Virus record (IMG/VR): IMGVR_UViG_3300009408_000044 | Location: 1-20,250 of that record | Strand: one strand, 5' to 3' | DNA length: 20,250 nt | Source: a virus | Part shown: piece by piece, positions 1 through 15,322 of the stretch | Numbering within the stretch: the stretch's first letter is position 1 | Layout of the letters: each line of letters opens with the position of its first letter | Made by a program: the position numbers and the translations under genes | Notes under the pieces: model-generated | Told to the model about the DNA's origin: nothing | Seen by the model: only the letters and a program-made list of their open reading frames with translations | The model's database searches: none

Positions 1-222
1 TCCCAGCTCCTTGTAATCTTCTGTGCGGGTGAGGTATTTACCATCTTTGAAGAGATTCAAATCTTGTGCAAGTCGATCATAATGCAGACTGTTTTTCATG
101 TGCCCTTTATGATCAGACCTATACCCTTCTCCAAGAGTGATTTCATACCCACGCTCATATGCAAATTTGAGCAATTCCGCCAGCATCTCTACGAATGCTG
201 ATTGTGCTTGTCGTAATGTCAT
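1..222 (-). CDS. Endolysin, M15 (VanY/L-Ala-D-Glu) peptidase family, 3' part outside window
   Basis: The ATG at 222 opens a frame that stays open to the window edge (74 codons visible), so the C-terminal part is missing. The visible residues hold the M15 signature S-x-H-x-x-R-L-A-x-D-L-N: S45, H47, R50 and D54, followed by a hydrophobic-Asp-Gly stretch (LFKDGKYL). In M15 peptidases this His and Asp bind the catalytic zinc; the second zinc His should lie beyond the edge. Such enzymes cut peptide cross-bridges or stems of peptidoglycan and act as phage lysins. No signal peptide is seen, so release through a holin is expected. The gene starts 3 nt after the upstream membrane-protein gene, with an AGAGG-like ribosome site 8 nt before the ATG. 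Its place at the end of the late operon fits lysis. Family assignment is firm; exact bond specificity is not known. Confidence 0.85.
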   Translation of the reverse strand, partial: MTLRQAQSAFVEMLAELLKFAYERGYEITLGEGYRSDHKGHMKNSLHYDRLAQDLNLFKDGKYLTRTEDYKELG

Positions 223-224
223 AG

Positions 225-482
225 TCAAGACCTCTTATCAAAATGCTTATCCATGCGATTTTCAATACGGTCAAAACGTCTGCCAAACTCTACCCGCATC
301 TGATCCACCGTCTTCGTCAAGGCTTCCACCTTGACTGCAATGGGACTGGATTTTTGCCATTTTTCATAATCATCCACAGTCATCCTGTTTTTGACACGGT
401 TGAATAGGAACCTCTGAACTAAAGCATTCGCCCCAACATAAGCTGTGACCAACACTCCGATAATCCAGTGCTTCTCCGGCAT
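225..482 (-). CDS. Small membrane-anchored coiled-coil protein, holin/spanin candidate
   Basis: The 85-residue product has one N-terminal hydrophobic segment (about residues 5-27: WIIGVLVTAYVGANALV and following), then a charged, heptad-like helix (about residues 45-80) ending in a basic tail. It sits directly before the endolysin gene, where phages usually keep holins or inner-membrane spanins. A single membrane span plus coiled coil also resembles XhlA-type or i-spanin proteins. No lipoprotein box and no embedded o-spanin gene was seen. An AGGAGG at 488-493 lies 2 nt from the first ATG (485) and 5 nt from the second (482). I chose the second, which gives a TGATG junction with the preceding 53-aa gene. 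Real gene: confident. Role: inferred from position and topology only. Confidence 0.75.
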   Translation of the reverse strand: MPEKHWIIGVLVTAYVGANALVQRFLFNRVKNRMTVDDYEKWQKSSPIAVKVEALTKTVDQMRVEFGRRFDRIENRMDKHFDKRS

Positions 483-643
483 CATCTCCTCCTCTTACGT
501 TTAGTTCCTTTCTTGTGGTACGTATCGTAGAACCCTTCTGCCCTACCCACTGCCTGTTTCTCCGTATACCCTTCCTTCCTGAACTCCGGGATAGCCCGTT
601 TCAGGTACTGCTTACGTGTTTCACCTTTTCTTGGTCTTGGCAT
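482..643 (-). CDS. Small basic phage protein, 53 aa
   Basis: A short frame reads MPRPRKGETRKQYLKRAIPE at its start and ends in a Lys/Arg-rich tail. It has a strong GGGAGG ribosome site (651-656) 7 nt before the ATG. Its 5' end overlaps the ATP-grasp gene by 23 nt and its TGA overlaps the next ATG (TGATG). The opening P-x-P-R-K-G-E-x-x-x-x-F/Y pattern recalls small proteins of unknown role found near head or portal genes of many phages ('PRKGE' start, then a helix with an A-V-x-x-A/C motif); this is recognition from memory, not a search. The protein is short and very basic, so binding to nucleic acid or to an acidic partner is possible. Without this gene the stretch 486-620 would be the only unexplained gap in the operon. 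I do not know its function. Confidence 0.72.
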   Translation of the reverse strand: MPRPRKGETRKQYLKRAIPEFRKEGYTEKQAVGRAEGFYDTYHKKGTKRKRRR

Positions 644-1916
644 CTTGAATCCTCCCTTGGGGTATATCCCACTTACCTACTTTTGGAAAAGTATACCCCC
701 ACTTTTCCAGTAAGGCTACTTCTTCCTGCATTCTATACCCTATATCTGATCTATACTGCTTTCCTACCAAATGAATTTTATCCACAACCTTATAGGCTTT
801 TTGCAAAGCTGTAAAAGCACTATGTCCCACTCCTGTAGCTACGCCAACAACTCCGTCATAAGCATTGGAGTACACCATAGTACCTTTTCTACTTACATCT
901 GTTGCCCAAAGGTCATTAGGCAAAAATTTTGCAAAATGACTTTTCCCTTTCATTTTTGGGTCAGGGGTGGAAGGGTAGGGAGGTACTGTTACCCGCACTC
1001 CAGCACCAACTTTCCACTTAAGTTCTCCTTTTCCAGAAAGGAAAGAAGTAAAGAAGTCTTCAATCTTCCCATCCCACATTGAAAGCAAAGTTTGGATTGC
1101 ATCATACCCGAATCGGGGTGTAAATTCCAACCCATGTGGAAGATGATCTGCTTGAGAAATTATAGAATTGATGTCAATAGGTCCCACAAACTTCATTCGA
1201 CGTAAGGTAGGAGTAAGTTTGTAGACAGTCTCCTTTGGAAGCTTCCCAGAAACTTGCATCACCACGTTTCCAGCGCATCCAATAGTAGGGCCTTTGTTAA
1301 AATCCATAAATTGCTTTTCTTCAAAGGTGCAGTTAGTGAAACCCTCAACAAAAGACTCTCCATTAAACCAACCCTCACAACTTACCTCAACCCCTTCTAC
1401 AAATTTTTGAAGCCCTACCACAGCTTTGGGATAGCGCCTTTGGTAATCAGAAAGTTTTTCAAGCATATCATCAGCAGAAGAAGCCACATAAGTAGATACT
1501 GTATCTACATTGTCATTTAACTTCACCACATACCTCTGTGGATGTTCAATCACAAAGCGCTCTGCTTCTGAGTAAGAAGTAAATGAATGCATCTTAGGCG
1601 AACGGATTTTGGAAACTTTCATAACTCCAATACCAAACAACCTATCAAGCTCAATCCTATCACCGAAACCACTTGCACCTATAACCCTTACCCCTCGTTT
1701 ACGTAAAGCATCTGCTTTTTTCCCAAACCCCACGTGGTCAAAAATAGCTACATCAACCCCTGCAACAGCAGATTCATAGGTAGAAGTAAAAGGAAAAAAG
1801 CCTTTGTAAACAGCTTTCGGGTCTTTAGCCCATACTTTTACCTTACTTCCTTCAAGAAGCATGCGATAAGCAATACTTAACCCATCCCCAAAAGCTGAAA
1901 TAAATGCCCATTTCAT
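621..1916 (-). CDS. PurD-like ATP-grasp enzyme (phosphoribosylamine-glycine ligase-related)
   Basis: The 431-residue product resembles GAR synthetase (PurD), normally 420-430 residues, over its whole length. It has an N-terminal pre-ATP-grasp-like part (residues 1-80, glycine-containing first loop then VKVWAKD), the nucleotide-binding strand VVKL (130-133), the hinge QKFVEGVEVSCEG (170-182), KGPTIGCAG (208-216; PurD has D-G-P-N-T-G-G-M-G), a D-I-N strand (248-250) and the metal/ATP motif LEFTPRFGYD (263-272; PurD has EFN-x-RFGDPE). The PurD glycine-rich loop after the lysine strand is absent (LNDNVDTVS instead), and the EFN Asn is Thr. ATP-grasp enzymes join a carboxylate to an amine through an acyl phosphate. 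Start: ATG overlapping the upstream TGA (ATGA), GGAGG 8 nt upstream. Lying among virion and lysis genes with no other purine gene visible, it is probably not simple purine synthesis; the substrate is unknown. Confidence 0.8.
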   Translation of the reverse strand: MKWAFISAFGDGLSIAYRMLLEGSKVKVWAKDPKAVYKGFFPFTSTYESAVAGVDVAIFDHVGFGKKADALRKRGVRVIGASGFGDRIELDRLFGIGVMKVSKIRSPKMHSFTSYSEAERFVIEHPQRYVVKLNDNVDTVSTYVASSADDMLEKLSDYQRRYPKAVVGLQKFVEGVEVSCEGWFNGESFVEGFTNCTFEEKQFMDFNKGPTIGCAGNVVMQVSGKLPKETVYKLTPTLRRMKFVGPIDINSIISQADHLPHGLEFTPRFGYDAIQTLLSMWDGKIEDFFTSFLSGKGELKWKVGAGVRVTVPPYPSTPDPKMKGKSHFAKFLPNDLWATDVSRKGTMVYSNAYDGVVGVATGVGHSAFTALQKAYKVVDKIHLVGKQYRSDIGYRMQEEVALLEKWGYTFPKVGKWDIPQGRIQDAKTKKR

Positions 1917-4900
1917 TGATATAACCTCCGTACCTCTGCAGCTCTCTTTTGAAGCGTTGTAGGAATCCTTCCGGGAGAAACAGTTTTTGCCTCTTGTAAT
2001 TTCCTTAAAAGGACTTGTGGAGAAAGATGAATCCTCTGGTAGGCAGGTTTCCCTCGGTTATAGTTTGCTAAGTCTCTTCTAACTTCTCTAAGACCTTCCG
2101 AATCTCCTTTATAAAAAGCTCTAACAAAACGATCATAGAAATACTCTCGATCAGTTGCAAGACGGTTTTGGAGAGAATGTATTGCATTTCTTGCTGCCCA
2201 AGTTTTTGCAACTCCAGAAGGAACAAAGCCTAAAGCCTTTAAAGTACTTTCTCCAAGAGATGGCTGGTAAATAAGCTTTCCTTTAGAAGTTCTGACTCCT
2301 TCTGTAGCATATTTGTAACCTTGTACTAAATTCCTCCCAGCTTCGGGAAGAAACTGAGAAAAAGCTTTTAAGGTATCCCCGGAACTTAAAGCTTTTGCAA
2401 GACGTTTAGGTCTTTGGAAAGTCACATCCCCTATAACGCCCAACACTCCAGGAAGATCTACCGAAGGAACAAGATCACCAACTCCGATACTCCCACTAAG
2501 GTCAACTCCCAAAGCACTTGGAACACCATGGTAAATAGAATCTGCAAGAACCCTCTCTGAAGAATGAGTTAAAAATCCTCCAGTTAAACGATGAAACCAT
2601 TCTCTAAAAGAAGTCTCTGGATCATACCCAGCTTTCTTCAATGCATAAAGAATAGGTCCACTAATAAGCACTCCAGAAAGACCTGAAAAAGCTGCCATAG
2701 CACCCATAGATTTGAGCAACGCTATTCCAGGATTTGTAGGAGATAATAAACCCTCCCCACTTGCCCTCAAAACTTCTTTTCCAAGACCTGACAACTCTGG
2801 CTGACGTCCTACCACATCCCTACCAATAAGCTGTCTTGCAAAGTTTACATTCATTAAAACATAGTTAAGAAGAAATGTACGAAAGGTACCTATTGGTGCA
2901 CCAATCCTACCTCTAAAGAGTTTTGGTCTATTAGCTTTTCCATACTCATAATGAGCATCCCTTACTAACTTCCGTGCAAAATTAGTGGCATCTATAAAAG
3001 AAAGTCCCTTCTCTCGTGCAACATCAAAAGCTGCAAGGAGCATTGTAGCACGATTGAAACGCTCAACCCCAGAAAAGAACATTCCACTGGAATCTCTCAG
3101 CTTCTTCACACTCTCTGGCAAAAAGCCTCCAGAGGTTTCTCCCTTAGCAGCACCCATTAATTCAAACATAAGTTTTGCCGATACATCTCCAGAAGCAATC
3201 CCAATTTCAAGGGCTTTTTGTTGCTCTGGCGAAAGAGGAGAATTTTTAGGGTTTACATAATGCATCATAACATCTTTTGAGGCCTTTGTTAAGCGCCTTA
3301 ATGCACCTTTGGTATATTGACTCAACACTGGCCAACCTGAAGTAATATTTTGTGTAGCATCAGCAAGAGCACTTTTTACATTCCACCCGAGATACATAGT
3401 GAAAAGTAACCCTCTAAGGGCTGCTGCTTCCTCTTGAGAGTTGAGGGTATACGACACATAGTCATCTGCATATGCTTTAAGATCTGACATAGATTGTGGG
3501 ATCTGAGCAAGGAGATCCCTCTGATCCCTCAAAGCAGGTGCTTTAGAAAGGTATCCTGCAAGACCAACAGCATAATCAGTAAGAGACCTTCCAAGATCCT
3601 CGCTAAACCCTGCTACATTTTTCCTATGAAGCAAATGAGAATTAAAACCTCTGTTGAGTAGAGGAGCCACTGAAGTAATGAACTCGTTTGCCACTCTGGG
3701 ATCAACTCCTGCAGTAGAAGCATAATTTTTCAATTCAGGAACAGAAAGTCCAGTGAAGATCTTCCTAAACTTCTTTGTCACAATCCCATGACGAATTCGA
3801 TTCTTAAGTGAAGGGTCTCTTTTTAGAAGATCAAGAATTGCAGCATCTCTTTCTCCTTTAGTCTTGAATTGTGCATACCAAGGAAGATCCTTCTCCCCCT
3901 TTTTGGGAGTAACTACTACATAGTACTTTCCAAAGCGGCTTTGTGGTATATAACCATTACGGGAGTTGATACTCTTATCAATCCTTTTAAGAGCTTTGAT
4001 CTTTTTGGTAAGTTCAGCTTTAAGGGCTTGGTCTTTTACAACCCCTCGAAAAGCAGCAAGCATAATAGGAGCATTATGCCAGTCCTTTTCTAACATAGCA
4101 ACCAACTTATTTGTCATATCTTCTGAAAGTGTTGCGTCATGAGCCCATTTTTGTAGATCGTATTTATTTACTACTTTTTCATACATAGCTTTATGTAAAT
4201 GGGTAAGCGCATCTTTCAAAAAGCTTGTTACTCCAAAATAAGCCTCTTTCTCTTTGGGGGAAAGCAAAGAAACTTCAGGGGAATTTTCATCAAAGTACCT
4301 CCCCTCAGAGTTACCTTTAAACAGTAAAGCACTCACTCTACCAAAACCCGGCAAGTCATTTTTCTGCATCTGTAGAAATGGACGAAGTTGCTGATGAAAT
4401 TGACTTGCCCATGAAGAAAAATGCTCTCCTTGCTGAAAAGCACGAAGGACGATAGGCTTAAAAATAGGATACCTATCAGCAAGATACAAAGGAGTAATGA
4501 TGTATTGTGAAAGTTTATCCCACCCAGTAAATTGCTTATAGGGTTTTTTCTCAAGAGAAGCAATTAGCTTCTTAATTTCTGGATCTTTAACCTTCGCTTT
4601 CATTCCTTCATAAATGTTACGAGTAGGAAGGTCAATAGAATCTCCCGTTTTTGGATCTTCTACTGGAGCACCAGCTGCTGCTCTTTTCCGTGCATCAGAC
4701 AAAGCTTTTTGGAAAAAGACTCTTCTGCCTCTTTTCAAAAAAGCTATCGTTGAAGCAAGCCCTAAAAGCCCTAAGAGGGGATAGTAATACCACTTTCCCT
4801 TTTCTTCTTTATCTCCCTGAAGTTGTGCTGCCTCAGCAGAAGAAGCAGATCCTACAAGTTTCAGTCCTGCCATGAGTCCTGCAAATTTGAGATACTTAGC

Positions 4901-7405
4901 CAACTTAGGGTCTTTCTTAAAAGCTTCTCTAAGAGAATTAAATAGCAGTGAATATTTTGGACTATGCACACCAACCCCGTTCTCAGCAATTTGCCCTATA
5001 GCTGTTGCCATTTGCTCTGCAGGGTCAGAAGCATAACTATCACTTATATGATCACCATACACACTATACATCAGATCTTTCCCCAAAGCTAATACTTTGG
5101 GAAATGGTACTTTTGGGTATAGACGTTTCAGTCCTACCCTCCAAGACTTTTCATACTCAGGTACTTTACGCTGCACTTCATGGGTATACTCATGTGCCAA
5201 AGTTTTTGAGGATAGATGAGCCAAGATAAGACCTAATTTTGTAAAATGCACCCCATACGACGGCCCCCCAGCAAAGTCTGCTATAATCTTAGAAGCTTCC
5301 TTCTGTGGAAGTGTAAGTACCCACGCACTTTTTTTGGGCATATTTTTCATAATAGACGCCACCACTGCTGGAAAAGCAGTTTCTGGTTTGTTACCAATCT
5401 TGATATGGTAATCGCCATTTGGATCGAAGGATTTATAAAGTTCTTCTATAGGAACAGCTCCAACCGAGTGAAAAAGAGTTTGAAGAGACTCCTTCACTTT
5501 ACTCTGCACATCCTTACTAAAAGTAGATCCCTCAACATCACTTACTGCAGCAATAAGATTATTTACTGTGCCCTCCAACCCTTTAGTCTTATACTGCTTC
5601 ATCCACTTATCAATATGATCCATTAACCCAACAGCATGTTCTAATTCAGCGTCTTCTATGGTGGGTTGTTGAGATCTCAAAAGATCCCGCCTTTTCATTT
5701 CTTCTACCGCATCAGCAAACCTCTCTTTGTAGAGATCCTTATTCTCTACATTTGCCCAATCAAGGCTGTTGGCTTTGTCAAGTTTGTCTTTTAGATGCGC
5801 ATAATTCTTAAGCAAAGCTTCGTCACTCATAGAAGCAAATGGATTACTTTCACCTCCACGAGATGTAGACTCATGCACTTTATCAAGAATCCTCTGTTCG
5901 GTAGGGGTAAACTTTTGCTCTCTAAACTTCCACATAGAGGGGTACTCTTTACTAAGAATAGAAGAAGTTCTAAAAGCAAGTCCTTGACGAGAAATTTGAG
6001 GATTCTCAGAAAGAACCTGCTCTGCTACCCTTTTCACCTCTTTCCCAAAGAGTAAGTTGGATTGAGGGTTTCCAGGAGATAGTTTCTCTTTAAGAGGTAC
6101 TTGCACTATAGGCTTCTGCAACTCCGGGTATTCTTTCAACACCTCCATGGGGACAGGTTTGCCTTCGGCGAGGGCTTTTTCAACAAGGTATTTATGTGGA
6201 TTATCTATACCCTGCTGCGGAATTTCAGCTATAGGCTTAGGCTGCAACTCCTCTATAGGAGTTCCTAATTCACCATAGCGAGCAATAATATCATTTACTG
6301 TTGCAGGTGTATCACCTATCCATAATAGATCCTTCGCAACATCTGCCTTGCGAGCAACTCTAATCTTAGGGTTCTTCACACCACGACGTTTTGCAAAGCT
6401 TTGTGCTTTCCCTAAATTAGCCCAAAAGGTGTTAGGCGCATTTATATTATCTGCGCCTACCCCTCTAAAAATATGAGCTTTCTCAAACTCCTCCTTTGTC
6501 ATCTGCCACGGTTCTTTCTTACCACCAACCTCTTCAGCCGCTTTATTTGCTACTACCAATCCTTCCTTGGGCGGCGTACCTCCACCCACAGGCAGCTCCT
6601 CAAGTTGTGGAACGGCTACTTTTGTAGGCTCTTCCGCAGGACTTTTTAAAGGTGGAGTTACTTTTTCTACTGGTTCACTGGGCTGAACTTTTCCAAGAGC
6701 GTCAAGGGATTTTAAAAACTCATCACCAGAAGAAAGCGCCTTCTTTGCTGCTACTTTTCCAGCAAGTTTGTGAGCACCTTTTACACCACCAAGCAAAATA
6801 GAATTTAAAAGAAAATCAGCGCCTACCTTTTGGGCTGAAGGTATTTTTCCTGTATTAGCATAAGTTTCAGCTTCTTGCACACCAGTAAGTCCCACCATTT
6901 CAGCAGGAAATCTTGCAGCTTTTGGAAGAAACTCAACAGGGCCTAAAAGTCCTCCAGTAAGAAACCCTAAAGCACCTTCCTTAGCACCTTCCGTAATACC
7001 TGCAACAACAGGATTTTTACCCTCTCTAAGAGCTGTCGCAGCAGATTGAGTACCTCCTACAGCAGCGGAACCACCCCCAAAAGCAAGAGCTTCTGGAAGA
7101 ATCTTGGCTACTAATGGTGCAAGTTTAACTCCAGCTTTTTCCAAAAGCGACATTCCGACTTTTTCAGCAATACCACCGGGGATAAGATACAAAGGAAGAT
7201 CCCCTAAGAGGTTGCCTGCACCATAAATGAGAGTTTCCCCAAAACCTTTAGGCCGGGTAATAAAGTGCTTCTTAACTCCTCCCATAGCTTCTACTAAAGA
7301 TGGAAGCGCAGCACTCTCCAACCCAGACATAAAGAGGGAACCTTTTGAAGGTCTTTGAGAAATATATTTATTATAAAGTGCCTGTGCTTCAGGTGAAAGA
7401 GCCAC
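1913..7405 (-). CDS. Giant internal virion/DNA-ejection protein with HExxH metallopeptidase motif and LPD38-like region
   Basis: At 1830 residues this is by far the largest gene, in the position of T7 gp16, after two helical internal virion proteins. Visible parts: Gly/Ala-rich hydrophobic N-terminus (50-215); Pro/Glu-rich linker (240-300); short segment with HIFRG and NTFWAN (302-380) of possible ADP-ribosyltransferase type; helical region; zinc motif H738-E-Y-T-H742 with a candidate third ligand E797 in SDPAEQMA; signal-like hydrophobic stretch (840-860) and membrane segment (872-890). A long helical C-terminal half includes GWNVKSALADATQN, ERFNRATMLLAA and GVDLSGSIGVGDL, which recall the LPD38-type regions of large phage polyvalent proteins. 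The expected role is ejection with the genome, cleaving cell-wall peptide or processing proteins and helping form a channel. Start is GTG with GGAGG 9 nt upstream; no ATG competes. Function as ejection protein: good inference; activity untested. Confidence 0.82.
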   Translation of the reverse strand: MALSPEAQALYNKYISQRPSKGSLFMSGLESAALPSLVEAMGGVKKHFITRPKGFGETLIYGAGNLLGDLPLYLIPGGIAEKVGMSLLEKAGVKLAPLVAKILPEALAFGGGSAAVGGTQSAATALREGKNPVVAGITEGAKEGALGFLTGGLLGPVEFLPKAARFPAEMVGLTGVQEAETYANTGKIPSAQKVGADFLLNSILLGGVKGAHKLAGKVAAKKALSSGDEFLKSLDALGKVQPSEPVEKVTPPLKSPAEEPTKVAVPQLEELPVGGGTPPKEGLVVANKAAEEVGGKKEPWQMTKEEFEKAHIFRGVGADNINAPNTFWANLGKAQSFAKRRGVKNPKIRVARKADVAKDLLWIGDTPATVNDIIARYGELGTPIEELQPKPIAEIPQQGIDNPHKYLVEKALAEGKPVPMEVLKEYPELQKPIVQVPLKEKLSPGNPQSNLLFGKEVKRVAEQVLSENPQISRQGLAFRTSSILSKEYPSMWKFREQKFTPTEQRILDKVHESTSRGGESNPFASMSDEALLKNYAHLKDKLDKANSLDWANVENKDLYKERFADAVEEMKRRDLLRSQQPTIEDAELEHAVGLMDHIDKWMKQYKTKGLEGTVNNLIAAVSDVEGSTFSKDVQSKVKESLQTLFHSVGAVPIEELYKSFDPNGDYHIKIGNKPETAFPAVVASIMKNMPKKSAWVLTLPQKEASKIIADFAGGPSYGVHFTKLGLILAHLSSKTLAHEYTHEVQRKVPEYEKSWRVGLKRLYPKVPFPKVLALGKDLMYSVYGDHISDSYASDPAEQMATAIGQIAENGVGVHSPKYSLLFNSLREAFKKDPKLAKYLKFAGLMAGLKLVGSASSAEAAQLQGDKEEKGKWYYYPLLGLLGLASTIAFLKRGRRVFFQKALSDARKRAAAGAPVEDPKTGDSIDLPTRNIYEGMKAKVKDPEIKKLIASLEKKPYKQFTGWDKLSQYIITPLYLADRYPIFKPIVLRAFQQGEHFSSWASQFHQQLRPFLQMQKNDLPGFGRVSALLFKGNSEGRYFDENSPEVSLLSPKEKEAYFGVTSFLKDALTHLHKAMYEKVVNKYDLQKWAHDATLSEDMTNKLVAMLEKDWHNAPIMLAAFRGVVKDQALKAELTKKIKALKRIDKSINSRNGYIPQSRFGKYYVVVTPKKGEKDLPWYAQFKTKGERDAAILDLLKRDPSLKNRIRHGIVTKKFRKIFTGLSVPELKNYASTAGVDPRVANEFITSVAPLLNRGFNSHLLHRKNVAGFSEDLGRSLTDYAVGLAGYLSKAPALRDQRDLLAQIPQSMSDLKAYADDYVSYTLNSQEEAAALRGLLFTMYLGWNVKSALADATQNITSGWPVLSQYTKGALRRLTKASKDVMMHYVNPKNSPLSPEQQKALEIGIASGDVSAKLMFELMGAAKGETSGGFLPESVKKLRDSSGMFFSGVERFNRATMLLAAFDVAREKGLSFIDATNFARKLVRDAHYEYGKANRPKLFRGRIGAPIGTFRTFLLNYVLMNVNFARQLIGRDVVGRQPELSGLGKEVLRASGEGLLSPTNPGIALLKSMGAMAAFSGLSGVLISGPILYALKKAGYDPETSFREWFHRLTGGFLTHSSERVLADSIYHGVPSALGVDLSGSIGVGDLVPSVDLPGVLGVIGDVTFQRPKRLAKALSSGDTLKAFSQFLPEAGRNLVQGYKYATEGVRTSKGKLIYQPSLGESTLKALGFVPSGVAKTWAARNAIHSLQNRLATDREYFYDRFVRAFYKGDSEGLREVRRDLANYNRGKPAYQRIHLSPQVLLRKLQEAKTVSPGRIPTTLQKRAAEVRRLYQ

Positions 7406-7407
7406 CT

Positions 7408-8265
7408 TTATTCTCCTCCCAAAGAGTTTATCACTGCAAGAGCGTTACGAAAACGAGCCGAGGCTTCCTTATCAGGAGTATAATGCTGCAAAGCATTCAC
7501 TTGAGCATTTACTAATCTTGCTGCAAGAATTTCTCTTGCGAGTTCCTGCTTCTTTCGCTGCAACGCTGAAAGAGATTCTTGGAACTGACGATCAATCTCT
7601 GCAAGCTGCTTTTGATACTCAGGTGATTGTGGTGTTGGTGTATCCAAAGGAGCATACCCTTGTAAAGCAGTTGCAAAACTTTGCCCTATAGAAGGAGCAA
7701 ATTGTTTGTTAAGAGCATCTAATGCTGCTTTCCTTTGAAGAGCTAACTTTTTCTCCTCCTCCTGAAAAGGAATTTCTACCAAGGAAGTTATAGGCTTTGA
7801 GTATATATCCTCAGCAGGGATTCCCATATTCTGCAAATCAGACACATACCCCACTCTTTGCTTTACAAGAGGCAACACCTGTTCACTATAAGAAGGTTCC
7901 TTAGCTTTACCTGCAAGAGCAGCACTTAACTCCTCCAACTTATATCTATGCTTTTGTGCCTCTGTTTGACTTTGCTCTGCGGGAATTGATGGAAGTGCGT
8001 ATTGTGTGTCATGAGAAATAGTGGGTAAGGGCCTCAAGAATACCCCAACATCCCGAGCAGCTTTAAGCATACGAGAACTTGCAGGAACAGCTGAGTTTGG
8101 CACTGTTGCCATATAGTTTTTTACCATCTCAAGTTCTCGCGCTCTCTTTGTAGCATCTTGAGCTGCATTCCATTTCTCAAGATCTATCTTATTTTGCAAG
8201 GCTCTCCTGGTTCCTATATCTCCGGGACCCGCAAGGTAGTGACCTATAAGATCAAGAAACCCCAT
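7408..8265 (-). CDS. Internal virion (ejection) protein, helical, 285 aa
   Basis: This 285-residue product is soluble and Ala/Gln/Lys-rich, with long predicted helices (about residues 20-50, 95-120, 165-190 and 220-260). There is a short hydrophobic N-terminus (MGFLDLIGHYLAGPG) and no catalytic motif. It lies between another helical protein and the 1830-aa ejection protein, matching the gp14-gp15-gp16 order of T7 and the ejection cassettes of other podoviruses. It is therefore likely packed inside the head or portal axis and released with DNA. AGGAGG stands 7 nt before the ATG, and the stop is 2 nt before the next GTG start, so translation is probably coupled. Family not recognised from sequence alone; the assignment rests on position and composition. 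Confidence 0.65.
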   Translation of the reverse strand: MGFLDLIGHYLAGPGDIGTRRALQNKIDLEKWNAAQDATKRARELEMVKNYMATVPNSAVPASSRMLKAARDVGVFLRPLPTISHDTQYALPSIPAEQSQTEAQKHRYKLEELSAALAGKAKEPSYSEQVLPLVKQRVGYVSDLQNMGIPAEDIYSKPITSLVEIPFQEEEKKLALQRKAALDALNKQFAPSIGQSFATALQGYAPLDTPTPQSPEYQKQLAEIDRQFQESLSALQRKKQELAREILAARLVNAQVNALQHYTPDKEASARFRNALAVINSLGGE

Positions 8266-8279
8266 TTTACTTCCTCCTA

Positions 8280-9317
8280 TTATGCAAAGGTTTTATCAAA
8301 CCCAATACCAAAAGACTTACCAGACTGCTTTCCAGTAGATGTAATAGTTCCAGTGCCACCACCCTTAAGCACATTAAGCAAAGTAACCAAAGTAGCAATC
8401 TTTTCTTCTGGAAACCCTTGTTGCCGAAGGTACTCTTGGAAAGCCACATCAGCTTTTTGCTGCGCCCTATTCTGAAGAGCTTCTGCCGCAGTTTTTCCCT
8501 CACCAATAGCACTCTGCCATGCAGGCAAATAAGTAGAAGCCACAGCATTTTGACCCCTAAGAAACTCTTGATATTTTCGGTCAAGAGCTGCCTGAGCATC
8601 TTGTTGCTGTAGTGCTCCTGCTTGATAAGCTTCTTTTGCTGGAATATATCCAGCTTCCATTACTCCAGGTAAAGCAGAAATAAGTGCCTGCTGCTTAGCC
8701 CGTTCATTTTCGTACTGACCCAAACCAAGCTGAGCTAACTGTCCAGCAAATTCTCCCTGAGCTTTTCCAAGGGCTTTCGCTTCCATAGAAGAAAGATCTG
8801 CACCATGTAGAGCATATTCATTCTTAATTGCAGGAAGTATATCCGAACTAAAAGTATCTGTAAGGTATTTGGTGTAGTCAGAAAAACCCGGAGCAGTTCT
8901 TGGATCAAGATATTTTCCAGATAAAACATCCTGCATGTAAGAAATAGTAGGATCATACAAAGCTGCTCCTGAAGTACCCCCCATAATAGATTGAAGGGCC
9001 TCAAGTTGTGCTTGATTCATTGGAGCTGTTAAATCACCAGAATAAGAAACTGGTCCAGTTCGCAAAAAATCCCTCAAAGCAGCATCACCTAAAGCTGCCC
9101 GCTGATCCATCCCAGTAAGAACATTTCTGTAGGTATCTGTTACAGGCGCAACTCTTTGACCAGAATAAGAAGTATAGGGAGCATTTAAATACTCCTTTCC
9201 ATAACCAAGAACATCCGCTACAAAAGGTTGATACTCTTTTGCAAAAGGGTTTCGTTGTTGTGTGGATGTCGCTTTACTCTTCTGCTTTTGATGCTTAAAC
9301 ATCCCTTTCACACTCAT
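8280..9317 (-). CDS. Internal virion protein, Ala/Gln-rich, 345 aa
   Basis: The product has a basic N-terminus (VKGMFKHQKQKSKA), a Tyr/Pro/Ser-containing region (30-130), an Ala/Gln-rich helical centre and C-terminal half (about 165-310), and a Gly/Ser/Thr tail (GGGTGTITSTGKQSGKS). No enzyme motif is visible. Such Ala/Gln-rich helical proteins, encoded between tail genes and a giant ejection protein, are typical podoviral core or ejection proteins (compare T7 gp14, P22 gp7/gp20 in role, not shown by identity). A GTG at 9320 and an ATG at 9317 are adjacent; the GAGGTG site fits the ATG better, and the ATG gives a TGATG overlap with the GNAT-like gene. Role inferred from context. Confidence 0.68.
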   Translation of the reverse strand: MSVKGMFKHQKQKSKATSTQQRNPFAKEYQPFVADVLGYGKEYLNAPYTSYSGQRVAPVTDTYRNVLTGMDQRAALGDAALRDFLRTGPVSYSGDLTAPMNQAQLEALQSIMGGTSGAALYDPTISYMQDVLSGKYLDPRTAPGFSDYTKYLTDTFSSDILPAIKNEYALHGADLSSMEAKALGKAQGEFAGQLAQLGLGQYENERAKQQALISALPGVMEAGYIPAKEAYQAGALQQQDAQAALDRKYQEFLRGQNAVASTYLPAWQSAIGEGKTAAEALQNRAQQKADVAFQEYLRQQGFPEEKIATLVTLLNVLKGGGTGTITSTGKQSGKSFGIGFDKTFA

Positions 9318-9757
9318 CACACCACCTCTTTCTTAAATTCATACGCATAAGGAATATACCCATAAGGCTGAAAAAGACGCTCCATTGCTTTATATCGAGT
9401 ACCACTAAAATGAATTTCTTTCACACTAAGCTTTTTTGCTATAGCATCTACTACCTTCATAGATCTCTTTAAAGGTACCTCTGAAGAAGCCATTCCAAAG
9501 TCAATATAAAGCATAGTATCATCGTAAACTCTGCAAGTAAAGAACCCCAAAACTTTATGCTTCAAAGTGATAAGTACAATAAAACCTCCTTCATCACAGA
9601 GAGTATAAAGTCTATCCATCACCTGACCTCGACTTTCTCCTACTAACTTAGCACTTTTTGTTTGCATATAAGCATCAACTAAATCCTTAAGCACACCACC
9701 AGCACCAAAGAAGTCAGTAGTTTGATAAGTCAAGCCATCTTTGAAATAGAATTTCAT
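9317..9757 (-). CDS. GNAT-fold acetyltransferase-like virion protein (T7 gp13-like position)
   Basis: The 146-residue product shows a GNAT-like pattern: helix, then hydrophobic strands GGFIVLITL and KVLGFFTCRVYDDTMLYIDFGMAS, a helix with KRSMKVVDAIAKKL, a strand KEIHFSGT, then a final RYKAMERLFQPYGYIP-Y segment like the 'GF' end of GNAT proteins. The canonical acetyl-CoA loop (R/Q-x-x-G-x-G/A) is not seen (S-S-E-V-P-L-K-R instead), so it may be a structural relative without activity. Gene 13 of T7-like phages is a small internal virion protein in the same place. The TTG at 9769 contains the ribosome site (GAGGG) in its own first codons, so I chose the ATG at 9757, 5 nt after that site. Fold: moderate confidence; catalysis: doubtful. 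Confidence 0.6.
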   Translation of the reverse strand: MKFYFKDGLTYQTTDFFGAGGVLKDLVDAYMQTKSAKLVGESRGQVMDRLYTLCDEGGFIVLITLKHKVLGFFTCRVYDDTMLYIDFGMASSEVPLKRSMKVVDAIAKKLSVKEIHFSGTRYKAMERLFQPYGYIPYAYEFKKEVV

Positions 9758-9765
9758 TAGATCCC

Positions 9766-10092
9766 TCAATATTGTGTATTATTTATCAAACAAAACCAAT
9801 GGTTTGTTCCTACCCCACTTCCCATATAAACATACAGTCCCGCTCCTCCTCCAGGATTCCATGAGCTTCCATCAGCAAACACTAACATCCCTTGGAATTT
9901 ATATGAAGGCTCTGTGTCTAAAGGCAAAAGAGTAACGCCATCAATCCCTTCATTACCTTTGTGGACACTATTAAGGTAGTGTGACAACCTACCAAAATAC
10001 TGATTTAGCATCTTTATTAGATGACTATGAAACTTAGTCACATCTTTTTCAGTTGGATCTGGAAAAATATAGGATGTAGCTAAATTCTTCAT
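9766..10092 (-). CDS. Small tail-associated protein with WNPGGGAGLY motif, 108 aa
   Basis: The first half is helical (TEKDVTKFHSHLIKMLNQYF). The second half is a small beta domain with FADGSSWNPGGGAGLYVYMG and a final HWFCLI strand. A 'G-x-L-x-x-A-D-G-x-x-W-N-P-G-x-G-x-G-x-Y' pattern occurs in short phage tail or fibre-linked proteins of unknown role; I recall the pattern but cannot name a family. The gene begins inside the stop of the nozzle gene (ATGA) with a GGGGAAG site close upstream, and lies between nozzle and ejection genes. It could be a tail-tip or nozzle accessory. Real gene: confident. Function: unknown. Confidence 0.65.
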   Translation of the reverse strand: MKNLATSYIFPDPTEKDVTKFHSHLIKMLNQYFGRLSHYLNSVHKGNEGIDGVTLLPLDTEPSYKFQGMLVFADGSSWNPGGGAGLYVYMGSGVGTNHWFCLINNTQY

Positions 10093-14128: not shown

Positions 14129-15322
14129 CTACACAGCGGTATAAGAAGTCAGATTCTCAAACCAACCATGGGTAGATGCATGATGGATCTCCAACCCACA
14201 CTCAGTGAGGTATTCATCCTGAGTAGCATCATAACCGGGACTCTGGCGATTGGAAAGAAATTTGGTGTCATCTACATAACGATAGATGAGATTCGCCCCA
14301 TCCACAATACACCCCGTCCCACGGAACTCTGCAATTTGGTTGAACAGAGGATGGAGTTTGAAGTAAAGAGTTCCGAAGTTGCTCACATGCTCAATGAATT
14401 TCATTCCCCATTTGGTGGTAACTGCTGGAGTGATCTGGGTAGCAGAAGCTTGATTGAACATCTTGGAAAAATTGTTCAGCGCCGTACTTCCAATAAAGCA
14501 GATTTTCTCCTGCGACCCATAGCGGAAGACTTTCTCCATATAGTCATTCCAAGTTTCAATCGAAGGGCCAGTAGACCAATCCATGAAAGTATCGGTGGAA
14601 TAGGTCTTCACCTCATTCCGAATCCCTCCTGTGGCCCTCTTAGGCTGAGTTCCACTAAGGTCTTCCTTCTTGTTTCCAAAGAGAAAAGCTTTCTCCATCT
14701 CAATGGAATGCAACTCCAGCGCCTCCCTTTTCGCTCGTTTGTAAGCGTCACCAGTACGAAGACGAGTCTTCTTCGCCGTACGAGTGATAGCAAGGGAAGT
14801 TCGAAAAATTTCGGTGTAGTTGTACTTTCGAGTAGGATCGTAAGTGATAGCACTCGGTACATCCGCACCTTCTTCATGCACCGAACCAATGATGATCAAA
14901 ACATCATTGTCAGAGGTAGTTCCAGTCTCTTTGGCCTTCCCCCAGCCACGGGAAACGGTGAGGGTGTCTCCAGATACAGAGGTCACAAGGAAAATCTCTT
15001 TTGTGTTGTTGTTCAACACAAGATGCCCAGCTTTGAAAAAAGCCCCAGTACCATTCCCTGCACCATCATCCACAGGGATTGTGGCTTTTGAGTCTGAAGT
15101 GGTTGCATCATTGATGTAAGCTTTCTGAGAAGCTGGATTCTTCTCATACCAACTAAATTCAGGGTCATCCACATTCTGCTTCTGCATCTTACTGGTAAGA
15201 GCAGTAAGAGGCGCAGAGCCGTTAGGGTAAAGGTAAAGAATACCTTCCCTGTAGTGTTTCGGCCTCGCAGTAGCAATAAAATCATCCGTTCCACGAAATC
15301 CAGCAAATACAACATCAGCCAT
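14129..15322 (-). CDS. Major capsid protein, SU10/DUF5309-like HK97 fold
   Basis: The 397-residue protein has an N-terminal region RGTDDFIATARPKHYREGIL and LTALTSKMQKQNVDDPEFSWYE, then an inserted beta domain (about 85-125; VLNNNTKEIFLVTSVSGDTLTV), then YNYTEIFRTSLAITRTAKKT and an A-K-R-E-A-L-E-L-H helix with E-K-A-F-LFGNK. This run of motifs is characteristic of the SU10-type (DUF5309) major capsid family of podoviruses and related phages, which have the HK97 fold. It directly follows the scaffold gene (3-nt gap) and has GGAGG 8 nt before its ATG. No protease gene and no maturation cleavage site were seen. This is one of the safest calls in the window. Confidence 0.88.
   Translation of the reverse strand: MADVVFAGFRGTDDFIATARPKHYREGILYLYPNGSAPLTALTSKMQKQNVDDPEFSWYEKNPASQKAYINDATTSDSKATIPVDDGAGNGTGAFFKAGHLVLNNNTKEIFLVTSVSGDTLTVSRGWGKAKETGTTSDNDVLIIIGSVHEEGADVPSAITYDPTRKYNYTEIFRTSLAITRTAKKTRLRTGDAYKRAKREALELHSIEMEKAFLFGNKKEDLSGTQPKRATGGIRNEVKTYSTDTFMDWSTGPSIETWNDYMEKVFRYGSQEKICFIGSTALNNFSKMFNQASATQITPAVTTKWGMKFIEHVSNFGTLYFKLHPLFNQIAEFRGTGCIVDGANLIYRYVDDTKFLSNRQSPGYDATQDEYLTECGLEIHHASTHGWFENLTSYTAV

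Follow-up and report, generated by a model that had tools for sequence, protein, structure and literature searches.

PurD-like proteins that are judged not to be GAR synthetases were partly noticed in cells in 2011. In PMC3261824, the 'extra' PurD proteins of haloarchaea, Hlac_1553 and rrnAC0307, are described as lacking the GARS_N domain, the Asp of the PS00184 signature (given there as R[LF]GDPEx[EQIM]) and the usual P-loop, and are judged to be non-GAR synthetases. In phages, LUZ24-like phages and PhiM6 carry modules of ATP-grasp, GATase and COOH-NH2 ligase proteins, for which a modification of peptidoglycan or peptides has been proposed (Iyer et al. 2009, as cited in work on those phages). 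The gene analysed here lies in an IMG/VR virus record; the window, meaning the whole stretch of 20,250 bases that was analysed, is only part of the phage genome. For the phage clades that we describe below, no description was found in the open-licence literature searched.

The ligase gene and its surroundings

The features of the window are as follows.

1..228, minus strand: start of an endolysin-like gene for an M15-type peptidase, with the N-terminal part inside the window and the rest beyond its edge (phrog_1768, E 2.5e-4)
225..485, minus strand: 86-aa ORF with a hydrophobic N-terminus and then a coiled-coil-like stretch, of holin/spanin type by position only (phrog_462, weak match, E 0.019)
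482..643, minus strand: basic ORF of 53 aa that overlaps the ligase gene at its 3' end and has a Shine-Dalgarno-like GGAGG of its own
621..1916, minus strand: PurD-like ATP-grasp ligase, 431 aa, ATG start, assigned by profile, structure and tree to a non-GARS paralogous family
1913..1916, minus strand: ATGA overlap of the ligase ATG with the TGA of the 1830-aa gene, a translational coupling arrangement
1925..1929, minus strand: Shine-Dalgarno GGAGG of the ligase gene, 8 nt before the ATG and within the 3' end of the upstream gene
1913..7405, minus strand: putative ejection / DarB-like polyvalent protein, 1830 aa (phrog_11358, E 2.2e-71; phrog_10089, DarB-like, E 3e-28)
7408..8265, minus strand: candidate internal/ejection-type protein, 285 aa, by position only
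8280..9320, minus strand: DNA ejection protein-like, 346 aa (phrog_4287, E 2.1e-8)
9317..9769, minus strand: GNAT-like acetyltransferase ORF in the same operon (phrog_3810, E 0.0041), with a GNAT likewise placed in MW202796
10089..11657, minus strand: virion structural protein of the short-tail stabilisation type, 522 aa (phrog_3287, E 1.9e-36)
14129..15322, minus strand: major head protein (phrog_1328, E 1.2e-34)

The ligase gene is real as predicted: the 431-aa frame compares with a longest open stretch of 163 aa in 200 shuffles of the first 2.7 kb, its start region reads GGAGG-TTATATCA-ATG on inspection, with a strong Shine-Dalgarno sequence, and it overlaps the 1830-aa gene by ATGA. Along the minus strand the order is terminase-side genes, head, stabilisation-type, GNAT-like, ejection-like, 285-aa and 1830-aa genes, the ligase, small genes and the endolysin-like start. 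This one-strand run of virion, 1830-aa, ligase and lysis-like genes fits a late operon. The neighbour that had been called a giant ejection protein is a putative one, recognised by PHROG similarity and position rather than by proteomics. In the uncultivated freshwater phage MW202796 the genes are arranged as in the window: the stabilisation protein is followed by the GNAT, internal proteins, a larger gene and the ligase. The GNAT-like ORF stands at 9317-9769 (minus strand) in the window and at the corresponding late-operon place in MW202796 (L001:15900-16346).

Relation of the ligase to PurD

Against the GAR synthetase model TIGR00877, the window ligase scored 79 bits (E 2.2e-22), which does not reach the curated cut-off of 288 bits that 13 of 14 control genomes passed. 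Pfam GARS_A and GARS_C scored slightly under their cut-offs, and the GARS N-terminal domain went undetected by Pfam although the predicted fold contains it. PDB chains of PurD matched with E values down to 1.5e-12, and neither PHROGs (E 0.01) nor PADLOC assigned a family. An AlphaFold model, built with 24 relatives in the alignment (pLDDT 90.1, pTM 0.89), has the multi-domain fold of PurD with N-terminal, ATP-grasp and C-terminal domains. When this model was compared with known structures, the first 13 places were all taken by GAR synthetases (Z 34.2 to 29.1; rmsd 3.2-4.4 Å over 370-389 residues), followed by a clear drop to PurT/PurK at Z 23.7 or lower, and an earlier model from a different alignment gave the same ranking. 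PylC, a peptide-type ligase, was also matched by the model in Foldseek, though it is not among the 50 matches listed from VIA-align, which does not count against the relationship. The original prediction of a full-length PurD relative is borne out by the profile match and by the predicted full-length GAR-synthetase fold: PurD is the nearest family, and an ATP-grasp fold is predicted rather than lacking. The motifs on which it was based were located at residues 130-133 (VVKL), 171-179 (KFVEGVEVS), 208-216 (KGPTIGCAG) and 264-270 (EFTPRFG).

To see which residues separate the ligase from PurD, 78 phage, 80 cellular and 11 true PurD sequences were compared in one alignment. The catalytic set K132, E199, K201, G209, G213, E264, R268, G270, R389 and D391 is invariant in the phage members, with E199 standing for PurD D214. 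At other positions the family departs from PurD. K105 of PurD is R92, invariant in phage and cellular members; Y271 is D248 and E187 is Q170, both invariant in phages and 96% conserved in cells; G273 is N250. N288 is T266, invariant in both groups, in the cellular set because the pattern by which its loci were picked, LE[FW]TxRFGY, demanded this residue together with R268, G270 and Y271 of the ligase. R92, Q170, D248 and N250 lie outside this collection pattern and are still conserved in cells. Some phage loci were picked by LE[FW]TxR[PF]G[WY] and the first phage set by other peptides. D293 of PurD is Y or W in the family, where the PS00184 signature R[LF]GDPEx[EQIM], whose GDPE is conserved in the PurD set, is absent (RFGYDAIQ in the window), and R11 and H13 of the GGREHA loop, kept in all PurD rows, are missing family-wide. 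The altered glycine-rich loop and the change from EFN to EFT, first seen in the window ligase, are thus traits of the whole family, and the window ligase carries its complete pattern (R92, Q170, D248, N250, T266, R268, G270).

The Asn lost in the N-to-T change is the usual ATP-grasp metal ligand. The ligase retains the ATP-grasp features K132 and E264, has Thr at the usual Asn ligand, and carries D248, likewise invariant in phages, which we infer may make up for the lost N288. Because the catalytic positions are kept while the PurD-specific positions are replaced, we read the alignment as showing an intact ATP/acyl-phosphate site and a new acceptor site.

Distribution in phages and cells

A scan of IMG/VR with the window protein as a single sequence found no relatives, which were found with a relative's sequence and with alignments; alignment-based scans gave 183 and then at least 552 phage relatives. 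The loci kept, together with the window and MW202796, form 79 clusters at 70% identity; gene calls are rough in the G+C-rich loci L053, L055, L083 and L093. Among about 50,700 phage records searched, MW202796 was the one recognisable member. In cellular genomes at least 572 relatives were detected by a scan, and the best 80 of these come largely from DPANN archaea, Nitrososphaerota, CPR bacteria, Acidobacteria and Parvularculaceae, with Woesearchaeota, Nitrososphaerota and Halobium among the archaeal holders.

In a tree made by a quick method, with SH-aLRT values as the only supports, PurD is set apart from the family at 100. Phage clade 1 comprises 16 rows including MW202796 (support 99) and a second phage clade comprises 61 phage rows including the window (support 99); one phage row, L179, is placed on the cellular side. 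By its sequences, this PurD-like non-GARS family is paralogous to PurD and distinct from it, with a set of invariant residues of its own. With a clade separate from PurD and acceptor-side residues replaced family-wide, the different substrate suspected from the window gene alone appears likely.

A contig of a Sulfuriferula MAG that is labelled cellular (L191, JARLJL010000016.1) groups in the window's phage clade and has phage-like neighbours. It is likely a viral contig and possibly gives a weak hint of a host.

Proposed function

On sequence and model, the window ligase is an ATP-grasp enzyme with a predicted PurD fold, yet not a GAR synthetase. We give a probability of roughly 0.6 to the reading that it is a late-made ATP-grasp carboxylate-amine ligase of a PurD-derived paralogous family, acting on an acceptor other than phosphoribosylamine. 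Such an enzyme would retain the PurD fold and the ATP/acyl-phosphate machinery with the features of the phosphoribosylamine site swapped, would use ATP to activate a carboxylate as an acyl phosphate, and would then pass the acyl group to an amine other than phosphoribosylamine. It would be made late, from the virion-assembly/lysis operon, with its translation coupled to the putative ejection-protein gene; because of this late production from that operon, its product would be needed at assembly, at release or in the last stage of infection.

As to the target, we tentatively rank first, at clearly less than even odds, a late change of envelope, peptide or small metabolite that is linked to lysis. 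A virion protein comes second and is rather doubtful, and a nucleotide or DNA-related substrate, like any other kind of target, is unlikely. The location on the lysis side suggests a role in the envelope or in release, and the coupling on the ejection side suggests a virion substrate in some phages. It is a speculative proposal that a large unnamed phage family with the PurD fold forms amide bonds late in infection at the expense of ATP, on a component of the phage or of the envelope and at the step of virion assembly or lysis, in many unrelated uncultured phages; if true, this would be a new kind of late phage function.

Neighbouring genes and alternative explanations

The ligase directly follows a gene of at least 500 aa (500-1830 aa) in 18 of the 79 clusters, nine of which belong to clade 1, and a 4-base overlap is present at the ligase in 27 of 79. 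In other clusters the preceding gene encodes a small hydrolase and often overlaps the ligase gene by 4 bases; in yet others the ligase gene has capsid genes on one side and tail genes on the other (L114, L130), or tail-fibre-like genes as neighbours (L120, L128, L167). The original prediction had placed the gene between ejection and lysis genes: the neighbourhood survey agrees with the late region, and the ejection link is confined to those 18 clusters. A tie to an ejection protein as a general rule was discarded, since most clusters have other neighbours such as lysis and tail-fibre genes.

Among the ligase neighbours are matches to many different PHROGs of endolysins and holins, and the adjoining hydrolases are of M15-like, Tlde1, P5/SLT-like and GH24 types, whose folds are unrelated. 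Because the models of a first, biased hydrolase survey had been seeded with ligase neighbours (the endolysin start of the window was in its M15-type set), a second survey searched 50 large contigs with Pfam models of four hydrolase families. Eight of the 13 hydrolases above cut-off lay no more than 650 bp from the ligase, with 0.38 expected and none of 20,000 random draws reaching eight, in a test that overstates independence because the clusters are related. No Amidase_2 hydrolases were found in this Pfam survey, and in four records 14-35 kb separate the ligase from the detected hydrolase. Most of the 50 contigs had none of the four families, and most lysis genes there are therefore unassigned by the survey. 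Since the phages are related and late genes cluster, the nearness to hydrolases marks an association with the late/lysis region and not a function.

Two further observations concern these regions. About 12 clusters have, no more than about 700 bp from the ligase, a member of a family of about 125 aa with an HE-x-x-E-type motif, zincin-like by eye and without a Pfam match over cut-off (examples are L082:9609-9983, L176, L153, L163, L162 and L168). At seven loci (L110, L117, L122, L126, L131, L139, L185), the large ejection-type proteins (1410-1869 aa) hold a stretch that matches the small P5/SLT-like hydrolase family.

Among specific explanations, the one that survives best, itself unlikely, is that the enzyme, together with the endolysin, alters a component of the cell envelope or of peptidoglycan at lysis. 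It draws on the several unrelated hydrolase types beside the ligase and on the eight of 13 Pfam-detected hydrolases within 650 bp, and is opposed by the four records with distant hydrolases and by the members in Woesearchaeota, Nitrososphaerota and Halobium, which are archaea not known to have peptidoglycan. Because of these archaeal members, the family reaction would not be peptidoglycan-specific unless it changed in phages.

A little less probable is the modification of a virion or ejection protein by an added amino acid or peptide (amidoligation), in which the adjoining ejection gene would supply the substrate or a companion. In favour of it, the ligase is coupled to a large ejection-type gene in each of the two phage clades, and the operon holds a GNAT in both the window and MW202796. 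Against it, the ligase adjoins no such gene in most clusters, where the neighbour varies, and the cellular members stand alone, with no conserved neighbour found among them. Because they do so, a dedicated phage-protein substrate is unlikely as the ancestral role. A conserved GNAT partner was considered and rejected: a GNAT-like gene lies directly downstream in 3 of 80 cellular loci (DPANN), and its profile missed the GNAT of the window.

A HAD-like C-terminal domain of about 110 aa (WIGVDLDGTLA...ILTAR...DDRVVQVE) is fused to the ligase in seven clusters of one subclade (L130:9995-11578, L128, L129, L133, L145, L148, L175), an assignment made by motif reading and one annotated phage homologue, with no match in Pfam. 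Cultured phages of Rhizobium, Burkholderia and Vibrio have this domain as a separate protein. The fused domain hints at phosphorylated substrates, and the ancestral enzyme uses phosphoribosylamine, so that a nucleotide or sugar-phosphate amine, as in DNA or nucleotide modification, could be the acceptor. We consider this improbable: the fusion is limited to that one subclade, no DNA-modification gene was recognised beside the ligase in the window, and late expression is poor timing for the modification of precursors.

More improbable still is a catalytically dead PurD descendant that serves as a structural or binding protein. The loss of the N288 metal ligand and the position among virion genes would agree with it, but the positions that bind phosphate, ATP and metal do not vary among very divergent members.

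The original prediction had also noted that no other purine gene is visible near the ligase. This applies to the window and extends to 32 phage records tested, none of which has PurM or a genuine purF; two weak PurF-like matches of 38-41 bits, against a cut-off of 350, are probably other amidotransferases. Family members beside purine genes in phages were thus looked for in these records and not seen. Of 18 cellular genomes, 10 carry a true PurD (365-585 bits) alongside the family member (86-118 bits). The family member is also present in four small genomes of archaea or CPR bacteria (G002, G003, G009, G018), in which PurD and PurF do not exceed their cut-offs and PurM has no match. One acidobacterial MAG (G016) has PurM and PurF beside the family member, with PurD not over cut-off; the missing PurD may be an assembly loss, and this exception therefore keeps some room for a GARS role of some cellular members. 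A check of the phage-collection matches near 22-25% brought up a true PurD (464-595 bits) in four unannotated UNVERIFIED records labelled as phages (OR845008, MT835525, OR848135, OQ572412; L292-L295), which were set aside as probably bacterial contigs or contamination.

That the window ligase functions as a GAR synthetase, its gene serving as an auxiliary metabolic gene to raise purine supply, is highly improbable despite its full PurD fold and PurD being its best curated family, given the 79 bits against 288, the family-wide loss of the PS00184 GDPE motif and the GGREH loop, the true PurD already present in 10 of 18 cellular genomes, the 32 phage records without purM/purF, the late gene position, and the same verdict reached in 2011 on two haloarchaeal proteins of like description (PMC3261824).

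Comparison with known systems

Other ATP-grasp enzymes share the fold with the ligase at a greater distance than PurD. PurK, PurT and biotin carboxylase reach Z of about 22-24, compared to 29-34 for PurD, and these three and PylC give Foldseek E values of 5e-17 or weaker, compared to 1e-24 or better for PurD. With GAR synthetase itself (EC 6.3.4.13; TIGR00877; PDB 2XCL, 2QK4, 2YW2), the ligase shares the N-terminal, ATP-grasp and C-terminal domains and the equivalents of K132, K201, E264, R268, R389 and D391; it differs in that GDPE, GGREH, K105, Y271, N288 and E187 of PurD are replaced in the family, which has no purine context and scores far under the cut-off. An automatic pipeline would name members of the family purD and enter them among the auxiliary metabolic genes for purine synthesis, a reading that the evidence contradicts.

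The amidoligase modules resemble the ligase in having phage-encoded ATP-grasp ligases with no assigned substrate. The module of UFV-P2 is early and includes amidoligase and amidotransferase genes, and its ATP-grasp protein is shorter, at 291 aa. The window gene differs in that it encodes a 431-aa PurD-type ligase and belongs to a late operon. Among its neighbours in the window, Pfam and PHROGs showed no Amidoligase_2, COOH-NH2 ligase or GATase partners, the 20-kb window being part of the genome.

By description there is also a likeness to Hlac_1553 and rrnAC0307, which are cellular; the Halobium member of our family fits the published account, and phage members are not mentioned in that passage of PMC3261824. 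The phage family forms two deep clades in hundreds of uncultured phages in IMG/VR. It links two orphan genes, one of phages and one of cells (archaea and small-genome bacteria), so that the substrate of either would inform both.
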